Assembly (NCBI GenBank): GCA_900168235.1
Contig: FUZG01000005.1
Span: forward strand, 124,001-188,000
From: Lachnospiraceae bacterium
GTDB lineage: Bacteria > Bacillota > Clostridia > Lachnospirales > Lachnospiraceae
DNA length: 64,000 nt
Reading direction: 5' to 3'
Made by a program: the position numbers and the translations under genes. Under the pieces are notes generated by a model. That model saw nothing but the letters and a program-made list of their open reading frames with translations. It did not search any database and was not told where the DNA came from. Of this stretch, positions 27,641-57,216 are shown piece after piece. The number at the start of each line of letters is the position of its first letter. Positions within the stretch are counted from its first letter, which is position 1.

Positions 27641-27873
27641 CGACAAGCGGTGACTGTACACGTTCCCGTGTGTGTCATTCATTCTATGACATAGTAATAC
27701 ACACGGTGTTCTCTACATGAAATTGCAGAACTTGTTACGTTACAGTGACTTGTCGCCAGTTTCTCGACTTGACATTCGCTCCACGGAGATACCTGCATAA
27801 GCAGCAACTTCACGCTTCATAGCTATCATGCCACAGCACTTGCCATTATAACACATACGGGGCATTTTGCAAG
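27641..27873 (-). promoter_or_regulatory. S10 operon promoter and ~230-nt structured leader
   Basis: Minus strand TTGCAA (27868-27873) and TATAAT (27846-27851), 16 bases apart. In the transcript the arm at 27742-27755 (CGACAAGTCACTGT) pairs with 27641-27657, closing a domain that contains a further hairpin built from CCGTGTGT and ACACACGG. The second arm ends about 20 bases before the rpsJ ribosome binding site. The layout suggests autogenous control; the ligand is not known. Confidence 0.65.
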
Positions 27874-46754: not shown

Positions 46755-46954
46755 GTTACTGTTCACTCGCTTGCAGCTCGCTCACGTAACGGATTTTGCC
46801 AATTAAATCGCCTGTGGCGATGGGCAAAATCCAATGGCTATTCATATTTCTTGTTCGTAAACAGCTAAAGCATACACTCTCACTAAGCTCACATGCGTTC
46901 GCTAAGTGTTCGTAGCATCCGCAGTAAATGCTCCGTTTACGTATGAACTGTAAC
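46755..46954. repeat. 200-bp element with imperfect terminal inverted repeats
   Basis: The left end GTTACTGTTCA is matched by the right end read backwards, GTTACAGTTCA. TTTTCCTGGTT flanks both sides as a direct repeat (46747-46757 and 46955-46965). Inside, GGATTTTGCC / GGCAAAATCC encloses ATCGCC-TGT-GGCGAT. No reading frame. This looks like a miniature inverted-repeat element or a dispersed structured repeat; copies elsewhere in the genome would decide. Confidence 0.5.
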
Positions 46955-51824: not shown

Positions 51825-52508
51825 TTATGCAAGTGCCGGGTCCTTTACGCCGTTTGCTTCAAATGCTGCTGCCCTGTCAATGCAGGTTCCGCACTTTCCG
51901 CAGGGCTTGTCATGACCTTCATAGCAGGACCATGTGAGCTCATAGGGAACCTTAAGCTCAAGTCCCAGCTTTACAACTTCAGCCTTATTTATATTTACAA
52001 AAGGTGCTTCGATTCGGAGCTGATGACCTGAACCCTCATAGATCGCTGTATTCATGGCTTCATTAAATGCAGGGGAGCAGTCAGGGTATGCAAATCCTGC
52101 TGAATCGTCCGCATGAGCGCCGTAGTAGATCACGCTGCATCCCTTGCTGAGAGCGATACTCGCCGCAGTTGAGAGAAACAGGCCGTTTCTAAAAGGCACA
52201 TAAGTGCTCACAGGTACCTCACCCTCAGTGTCCTTTATCTGCTCGGAATAAGCTTTTTCAGGAATCGCCTCAGTTGACTGCTTTAAGAGGGAACAGTTGC
52301 TGTACTCAAAAATCTTACTAAGATCCATGAAAAGCTGCTCGACGCCATAGTACTCTGCAACCGCCTTTGCGGCCTCGATCTCTTTATCGTGCTTCTGACC
52401 ATAAGATACAGAAAGTGTTATTACATTCTCAGCACCGAACTTTTTTACTGCGAGTCCGAGTGCTGTTGTGGAATCAACACCTCCGCTTGATAAAACCATT
52501 GCTTTCAT
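51825..52508 (-). CDS. queC: 7-cyano-7-deazaguanine (preQ0) synthase
   Basis: Converts CDG to preQ0 with ATP and ammonia. 227 residues; P-loop [13 protein letters not shown] at the start and the zinc site [16 protein letters not shown] near residue 195. Confidence 0.96.
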
Positions 52509-52554
52509 TGACTTTTCTCTCCCATCAAAGATACAGTTTTTTGTACACTAAAAC

Positions 52555-55898: not shown

Positions 55899-55976
55899 AG
55901 AGTATGAAAATCTAGAGGATCATTATGCGCGCTTAGCCATACTCTTAGTATCTGTAATAAAAGGGGGAGCATGCGA

Positions 55977-56558
55977 ATGAAAGCAGCCGAGACACTGCAC
56001 GAAGGCGATATCATCATCATCCGGTGGAAGACAAGCCGGTTCACGAGACTGTATAGAACTGTGGTATTAAAGGTAGAAGGCAACATCGTTGCACTTGAGC
56101 CCATATACGATAAACTCGGGATCGTGCCCTTTGACCGCGGTGTTACAGAGCTTATCCCGGTTGGTGAAGAGACAGTTTACCAGAATCTCCACGTTACACT
56201 ATCTCACCTGAACGGCAAGGATATTTATCTGGTTTCCGGACATTCCGAGGGCAGTATTTATACAGAACACCGTAAATTCGTTCGTTTCACGGTAAATATG
56301 AAATGCTCTATCGGAAATAACTCAGCGATCCTCGCGGATATCAGCTCCGGCGGTTTCAGGGTCGTTCTTAAAAACGACTATCCTATAGGCGCATGGCTGA
56401 AGCTCAATGAGTACTTTGATGTACCGGGACTCATCGTTCGTAAGTCCAAAGTGAACAGCGAGATGTTTTCCTATGGATGCCAGGTTCTGGATCCAAACAA
56501 TGCTTTCCTGAACTTCGTAACAGCAAGAGAAGCTGAAGGCGCACCGGTACTTAATTAA
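55977..56558 (+). CDS. PilZ-domain c-di-GMP receptor (YcgR-like)
   Basis: A 193-residue protein with an N-terminal YcgR-N-like beta region (EGDIIIIRWKTSRFTRLYRT) and a PilZ domain holding both binding motifs: RKFVRF (RxxxR, about 98) and DISSGG (DxSxxG, about 120). Such proteins bind c-di-GMP and often slow the flagellar motor. I prefer the ATG at 55977, seven bases behind GGAG, over the one at 55971. Confidence 0.88.
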   Translation: MKAAETLHEGDIIIIRWKTSRFTRLYRTVVLKVEGNIVALEPIYDKLGIVPFDRGVTELIPVGEETVYQNLHVTLSHLNGKDIYLVSGHSEGSIYTEHRKFVRFTVNMKCSIGNNSAILADISSGGFRVVLKNDYPIGAWLKLNEYFDVPGLIVRKSKVNSEMFSYGCQVLDPNNAFLNFVTAREAEGAPVLN

Positions 56559-56578: not shown

Positions 56579-56612
56579 ACCGGAAGGTCCTGTCATGGCC
56601 TTCCGGTATTTT
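56579..56612 (+). terminator. Terminator of the PilZ gene
   Basis: ACCGGAAGG pairs with CCTTCCGGT, followed by ATTTTG; 20 bases past the stop codon. Confidence 0.8.
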
Positions 56613-56689
56613 GTATTCATTTTGTTCCTGACGTTATGCACAAGATGACGTGGAACAGGATATTTCAGTTCGTATATTTAGTTGAAAAG

Positions 56690-56867
56690 ACACTTCGGTG
56701 ATCCTACCGGATCCTGATCGTTGCAGCATTCTCTCCCGTCAGACCTCCATCTGAAAAGATGCTGCAGCCCCCCGTCAGGATCCGGGTTAAGATATACCTC
56801 CAAGATCTCTTAAACTTAGGATCTCAGCACCACTTAAAAACAGCCGGCGAAATCGTCGGCTGTTTTT
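56690..56867 (+). ncRNA. Candidate small RNA with CCUCC loops
   Basis: No reading frame, but strong structure. CCGGATCCTGA (56707-56717) pairs perfectly with TCAGGATCCGG (56775-56785). Inside, TGCAGCAT (56722) pairs with ATGCTGCA (56759), and inside that TCAGA/TCTGA exposes the six-base loop CCTCCA. A second CCTCC lies single-stranded at 56797. The 3' end is a terminator (56836-56867). A weak -10 TATATT is at 56673. C-rich loops of this kind in Firmicutes regulatory RNAs pair with Shine-Dalgarno sequences. Confidence 0.6.
56836..56867. terminator. Bidirectional terminator
   Basis: AAAAACAGCCG pairs with CGGCTGTTTTT; it can end both the candidate small RNA (plus strand) and the small membrane protein gene (minus strand). 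Confidence 0.85.
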
Positions 56868-56898: not shown

Positions 56899-57216
56899 TT
56901 AACAAACGCTGCACAAATGACAACATATGATTACCATAAACCACATTGCGACGCACATTCCTGTATATGCTGCCACTACAAAACGGGTGTTTTTCTGGAT
57001 AGCCTTGATCCCCCAGTATACCGACAACGGAAGAAGTATTATGAACCCTATCATATAAAGGACTGCCGGAATAAAAAGAGCAGCTCCCAGAATGCAATGA
57101 AAAGCGGCTGTATCAGCTTCCCACTGTTTTTCACTAAGTGTATCGCTCAATGCGATTTCCGAAAAAGCGATCCTTGCTCTTTCTCCATAGTCTGCTTCGT
57201 ATCTAAAAACATCCAT
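56899..57216 (-). CDS. Small membrane protein of unknown function
   Basis: A 105-residue protein with two hydrophobic helices (AALFIPAVLYMIGFIILLPL near 46-70 and AAYTGMCVAMWFMVIICCHL near 82-101) and a charged N-terminal part. The ATG at 57216 has AAAGGG upstream at a long spacing. Two Cys pairs cluster at the C terminus. An overlapping frame at 56873-57097 is less likely. Family not recognised. Confidence 0.6.
   Translation of the reverse strand: MDVFRYEADYGERARIAFSEIALSDTLSEKQWEADTAAFHCILGAALFIPAVLYMIGFIILLPLSVYWGIKAIQKNTRFVVAAYTGMCVAMWFMVIICCHLCSVC

Follow-up and report, generated by a model that had tools for sequence, protein, structure and literature searches.

The window analyzed here, a stretch of 64,000 nucleotides from a contig of a Lachnospiraceae bacterium, contains a candidate small RNA gene flanked on one side by a PilZ-domain gene and on the other by a convergent minus-strand gene for a 105-aa protein, probably a small membrane protein (Table 1). 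PilZ is a cyclic-di-GMP effector. The first-pass annotation had placed a noncoding RNA between a PilZ gene and a gene for a small protein, and this placement is borne out. In keeping with the statement that no protein is encoded, no open reading frame is common to the RNA and its relatives. The true start of pilZ is probably the ATG at 55977. In a promoter scan of the window, no plus-strand promoter was listed before the RNA. The inverted repeat at its 3' end could serve as a terminator for both the RNA and the convergent minus-strand gene, and an equivalent inverted repeat follows the RNA in the relatives; the strong terminator announced earlier is thus present as a putative one.

Table 1. 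Features of the candidate RNA locus, in window coordinates.
Feature	Coordinates	Strand	Remarks
Ribosome-binding region of pilZ, AGGGGGAGCATGCG	55962..55975	+	Candidate target of C-rich site 1
pilZ-domain gene	55971..56558	+	PF07238, E 6e-08; syntenic neighbor
Terminator-like hairpin after pilZ, between pilZ and the RNA	56579..56607	+	1 found vs 0.8 expected in shuffles
Possible -10 element, TATATT	56673..56678	+	Weak, without a good -35; from sequence only
Candidate small RNA gene	56698..56867	+	About 170 nt, counted from where conservation begins to the T-run of the terminator; 5' end putative
P1, outer stem, GATCCT/AGGATC	56700-56705 / 56818-56823	+	6 bp; closes the three-way junction
P2, perfect stem, CCGGATCCTGA/TCAGGATCCGG	56707-56717 / 56775-56785	+	11 bp; recovered by RNAalifold
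P3, stem, TGCAGCAT/ATGCTGCA	56722-56729 / 56759-56766	+	8 bp, of which 7 are kept in relatives
C-rich site 1, UCUCUCCCG, unpaired	56730..56738	+	Identical in 4/4 genomes; internal loop P3/P4
P4, hairpin, TCAGA-CCTCCA-TCTGA	56739-56754	+	5-bp stem, six-base loop; hexaloop of the first-pass annotation
C-rich site 2, GCCCCCCG, unpaired	56767..56774	+	CCCCCGTCAG part invariant; internal loop P2/P3
P5, hairpin, TTAAGA-(TATACCTCCAAGATC)-TCTTAA	56787..56813	+	Displays C-rich site 3
C-rich site 3, ACCUCC, P5 loop	56796-56801	+	Invariant
Inverted repeat, A5 at start, T5 on the plus strand	56836..56867	both	14 bp; putative terminator, from sequence
Convergent 105-aa gene	56899..57216	-	Probable small membrane protein; synteny kept in the four carriers

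We are confident that the region encodes an uncatalogued, conserved structured RNA. Its plus strand folds at -76.2 kcal/mol, compared with -43.6 +/- 4.0 kcal/mol in dinucleotide shuffles (z -8.1), and none of 200 such shuffles folded as well. Folding is strong on the opposite strand too (z -5.65), so that fold strength by itself does not decide between the two. All three distinct sequences available have the same three-way junction as their minimum free energy structure, followed by the inverted repeat. In the predicted architecture, P1 closes the junction, the long P2-P3-P4 hairpin and the P5 hairpin form its arms, and the terminator lies after it. The 11-bp stem, the 8-bp stem, and the hairpin with the six-base CCUCCA loop that were described earlier are all present; contrary to what had been supposed, however, the 6-bp P1 lies outside the 11-bp stem and encloses it, and the further CCUCC described as single stranded lies within the loop of a hairpin, P5, that had been overlooked.

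The structure is supported by the pattern of substitutions among four homologous sequences (three distinct, representing essentially two lineages). The 34-pair structure has a standard pair in 100% of the alignment cells, versus at most 45% when it is slid along the alignment. Both partners have changed in five pairs, of which P2 holds four, versus 1.7 in shuffles, of which 4 of 500 reached as high a count; slid versions of the structure gave 0 or 1 such change. Between the lineages, P2 has one further pair changed on one side and none broken; covariation in relatives, proposed earlier as a check, is found in this 11-bp stem in the form of four double compensatory changes. P3 has one pair changed on both sides and one changed on one side. 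P1 is invariant in all four genomes, and 26 of the 27 positions of P5 are identical in all four, the sole difference being the base before CTCTTAA. Unaided, RNAalifold recovered P1, P2, P4, and P5; it missed P3 because of an insertion in one homologue (L007), yet P3 forms in each individual fold.

The distribution of this RNA is narrow. Searched with blastn within the genus, homologues were found in three other species (G009, G014, and G031), and the same 4 of 48 genus genomes were identified as carriers both by a covariance model and by a tolerant pattern; in the genome studied here the RNA is present in a single copy. No homologue was found by blastn in 392 genomes of the order, by pattern in 397 genomes of the family, or in phages, plasmids, and viral contigs. 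A GTDB scan for two CCCGTCAG motifs, which leaves out near relatives, gave no covariance-model homologue among the matches listed (80 of 113 stretches). One match in the family (L162/L062, CCCGTCAGA-CAC-TCTGA) was rejected because it lies inside the ribBA coding sequence. The genomes of the family and of the order searched here are samples, and the covariance model scored first-look candidates up to a limited number in each genome, so that diverged copies could have escaped these searches.

Where the contig allows it to be seen, the RNA lies downstream of pilZ and upstream of the convergent 105-aa gene. The latter, which matches nothing in Pfam or NCBIfam, occurs in 4 of 48 genomes, exactly those with the RNA. 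The pilZ orthologue occurs in 3 of 48, all of them carriers (outside the window only G014 and G031, with gene order kept); the contig of the fourth carrier starts 590 bases ahead of the match. As the carriers may be one clade, their shared gene content argues only weakly for a functional link. In the three relatives, pilZ and the RNA are separated by an open reading frame of 237 aa that the window locus lacks, and the RNA begins a few bases at most from the stop codon of this frame. A strongly conserved protein of 230 to 237 aa is encoded at L006 (757-1470, plus strand) and L007 (1698-2390, minus strand); it has no match in Pfam or NCBIfam, and the 237-aa protein gave no tblastn match in about 1.6 Mb of G000. 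These genomes also contain a dispersed, REP-like palindromic repeat, GTTACgTGAGCGAGCtGaAAGCGAGTGAACaGTAAC, about 36 nt long (for example, at 46755-46790 on the minus strand of the window and at L194 8713-8757). It was matched 6 times in G000 (about 1.6 Mb searched), 10 times in G031 (about 0.8 Mb searched), and once in G014. A diverged 36-nt copy is inserted in P3 of the G031 RNA, where all C-rich seeds are intact and open.

Among the most conserved parts of the RNA are its unpaired C-rich segments. Between the window sequence and the L006 homologue, 28 of 28 unpaired C-rich columns are identical, versus 20 of 43 other unpaired columns and 56 of 68 paired ones; the p-value of 7e-7 for this comparison is optimistic, the C-rich class having been named after the alignment was seen. 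The open seeds CUCUCCCG, CCCCCG, and ACCUCC are invariant, and only ACCUCC lies in a hairpin loop. Site 1 falls inside an invariant 19-nt motif, CAGCATTCTCTCCCGTCAG (56724-56742). Calculated opening costs are low, at 0.6 to 1.2 kcal/mol for CUCUCCC of site 1, 0.0 to 0.35 kcal/mol for the accessible CCCCC of site 2, and 0.2 to 0.4 kcal/mol for ACCUCC of site 3. Conserved, accessible UCCC/CUCCC or CCUCC motifs, the mark of Gram-positive anti-Shine-Dalgarno small RNAs, are therefore present (CUCUCCC, CCCCC, and ACCUCC). The core of the first-pass annotation, a noncoding structured RNA with unpaired segments resembling an anti-Shine-Dalgarno sequence, is supported by the compensatory changes in P2 and by C-rich segments that are invariant across two lineages and cheaply opened.

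The candidate targets of such seeds were ranked over about 1.6 of 3.8 Mb in G000 and about 0.8 of 4.3 Mb in G031, with heuristic gene calls and start sites and 240 reciprocal-best orthologue pairs. The ribosome-binding region of pilZ is predicted to pair with site 1 (CAGCAUUCUCUCCCGUCAG) at -18.8 kcal/mol in the window, -19.8 kcal/mol in G031, and -18.0 kcal/mol in G014. For site 1, pilZ ranks 1st of the 240 pairs by both the weaker and the summed hybrid energy, a position to be read in the knowledge that pilZ was noticed before the ranking and that four RNA segments were tried; with 200 permuted motifs, it never ranked better than 4th. Its rank is 8 of 240 with an accessibility correction, and 29 of 1,301 and 3 of 346 in G000 and G031 taken singly. 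The register of the extended RNA-pilZ duplex differs between the two lineages. We regard the evidence as suggestive and pilZ mRNA as a tentative candidate target, the best single one.

Across the genome, pairing is less distinctive. Against about 1,300 start regions of G000, neither the best nor the mean complementarity of the conserved motif significantly exceeded that of permuted motifs, the best energy being reached by 6% of full permutations and by 23% of those in which the core was kept. An extended complement of the P5 loop showed no excess over the reversed control. The target pattern for site 1, TGRYGGGRGRGRR, occurs at similar counts in carriers and noncarriers, with many matches inside coding sequence; those in sugar-ABC ATPases are read as Walker-A codons. 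In G031, one start region, that of a nuclease/helicase-like gene, stands out at -29.1 kcal/mol (0 of 120 permutations); it was set aside because the gene has no clear orthologue in the other carriers. The gene queC (window 52508) offers a strong complement that is not conserved in G031, and it too was rejected. In G000, this queC-like gene (window 52508-52527, minus strand) and a gene for a 256-aa protein (G000:C11:384774-384786) have a leader in common, TTTGATGGGAGAGAAAA, which complements site 1 over about 14 bp if G-U pairs are allowed. The start region of a sugar-ABC ATPase gene in G014, TTGACGGGGAGGAG (L193 10778-10830, minus strand), pairs at -20.2 kcal/mol with site 1 and at -16.9 kcal/mol with site 2; at the best-scored start of its window orthologue, the strong pairing seen in G014 is missing.

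On balance, we think that this RNA probably is a stand-alone, trans-acting riboregulator of the anti-Shine-Dalgarno type, like LhrC/RNAIII or NfeR1 but unrelated to them in sequence. Given its anatomy and the known small RNAs with UCCC-type or redundant anti-Shine-Dalgarno seeds, we infer that it is transcribed and represses translation in trans by seed pairing. Its scaffold would present three constitutively open C-rich seeds; on a target mRNA, one of these would base-pair at the G-rich Shine-Dalgarno region, and the duplex would extend into the neighboring stems and block 30S binding. A narrower form of the proposal, in which a dedicated small RNA feeds back on the adjoining PilZ mRNA and its redundant seeds cover the pilZ ribosome-binding site, seems to us rather unlikely. 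If true, it would amount to an RNA brake on the cyclic-di-GMP response that forms one unit with pilZ in a subclade of Lachnospiraceae.

Of comparable, low probability is the idea that the RNA belongs to the 3' untranslated region of the upstream transcript (pilZ here, the 237-aa open reading frame in the relatives), where it might protect the 3' end of the mRNA or be processed off and feed back in the manner of OppZ and CarZ in Vibrio. OppZ and CarZ are processed from operon mRNA by RNase E. The absence of a convincing promoter in the window is consistent with such an origin, as is the position of the RNA a few bases past a stop codon in G009, G014, and G031 with no terminator between; furthermore, pilZ is the top comparative target, and the principle of autoregulation is published (PMC7398697). 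However, in the window pilZ is followed, ahead of the RNA, by a terminator-like hairpin, a terminator-like repeat belonging to pilZ is present in the relatives too, and the RNA is kept at the window locus, from which the 237-aa open reading frame is absent. A plain protector of the 3' end would also need no invariant unpaired C-rich segments. Slightly less probable again is a scaffold whose open C-rich segments bind an RNA-binding protein instead of mRNA. The large invariant architecture, which extends beyond short seeds to the stem of P5, and the lack of significant genome-wide mRNA complementarity would suit a scaffold, but the RNA matches no known structural RNA family above threshold, and the unpaired segments that stay invariant in it complement Shine-Dalgarno cores.

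We give very little credence to the proposal of the first-pass annotation that the CCUCCA hexaloop makes the RNA a global translational repressor. The loop is indeed fully unpaired in the fold, with an opening cost of 0, and CCUCC complements GGAGG, a sequence that 20 of 60 window genes have upstream. Yet the hexaloop is private to this genome: all three relatives carry the same hairpin as TCAGG-TTAT-CCTGA, with the stem kept, its last pair changed from A-U to G-C in compensation, and a UUAU tetraloop in place of the supposed active part. Targets cannot be selected by a five-base complement that one gene in three shares, and the search of about 1,300 start regions, with no excess complementarity, speaks against broad repression. 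Nor does AGGAGG dominate upstream regions as had been claimed, as it precedes 12 of 60 window genes (GGAG precedes 36 of 60), by heuristic gene calls and starts. Equally improbable is a functional transcript on the minus strand, or a mere bidirectional terminator with a decorative hairpin. The strong minus-strand fold and the symmetry of the inverted repeat would allow either, but the minus-strand gene would end at the terminator before reaching this region, and conservation with compensatory changes extends 130 nt beyond the terminator.

The stand-alone anti-Shine-Dalgarno regulator that we favor is a covariation-supported, lineage-specific candidate RNA whose conserved parts are anti-Shine-Dalgarno seeds and whose candidate target adjoins it. 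Conservation here tells the parts under selection apart from a loop that is eye-catching but private. Little study seems to have been devoted to the small RNAs of Lachnospiraceae, and a literature search found none on that family.

With respect to known systems, this is a narrowly distributed new RNA family whose proposed function is of a known kind. No Rfam 15 family reaches the gathering score or comes near it at the locus, even with relaxed thresholds, and the homologue is likewise unmatched. The sole match of the window at the gathering threshold is the S10-Clostridia ribosomal protein leader (RF03136, 79.9 bits, 27750-27828, minus strand). AaHKsRNA41 (RF02901) shares a long hairpin, a middle part, and a terminator with the RNA at a subthreshold 29.2 bits (gathering score, 97) and does not match the L006 homologue; we consider this a chance resemblance. 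There is no Rfam match to 6S RNA or other housekeeping noncoding RNAs, and the RNA, found in only 4 genus genomes among those searched, does not show a wide phylogenetic spread.

OppZ and CarZ of Vibrio cholerae are autoregulatory small RNAs from 3' untranslated regions that feed back on their mother operon (PMC7398697). The RNA described here likewise lies downstream of an adjoining gene whose ribosome-binding region is the candidate target, but terminators appear to separate it from pilZ, and regulation is only proposed. In alpha-proteobacteria, the NfeR1, alpha-r14, and cuckoo RNAs carry three unpaired anti-Shine-Dalgarno copies as redundant seeds (PMC10746234, PMC3927594), and functional redundancy is documented for NfeR1 (PMC10746234). 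The resemblance consists in three unpaired anti-Shine-Dalgarno sites in one RNA. In alpha-r14 and the cuckoo RNAs, of another phylum, an identical CCUCCUCCC is displayed in three separate hairpins, whereas here three differing sites are arranged in a junction and the CCUCCUCCC loop does not occur.

UCCC/CUCCC-type seeds are a known tool of Gram-positive small RNAs that block initiation, and in RNAIII, RsaE, and SprD of Staphylococcus aureus, FsrA of Bacillus subtilis, and LhrC, accessible UCCC-type boxes pair with Shine-Dalgarno sequences (PMC4132741, PMC3861533). The RNA shares the accessible UCCC motifs of RNAIII, RsaE, SprD, and FsrA but has a different fold and no Rfam match; RNAIII also has a coding part, which is lacking here. 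No covariance-model match at the gathering score was obtained for LhrC, RsaE, FsrA, or RNAIII as Rfam-type families. LhrC of Listeria monocytogenes bears three redundant C-rich (CUCCC/UCCC) sites in loops or single strands, which pair with the G-rich Shine-Dalgarno region of the target, and binding opens a stem of the small RNA (PMC4132741). It is present in five copies, versus the single copy here, and has no sequence or Rfam match to our RNA, in which the sites lie in a three-way junction and the targets are only candidates. What the two would have in common is the plan of a Firmicute small RNA with three C-rich sites.
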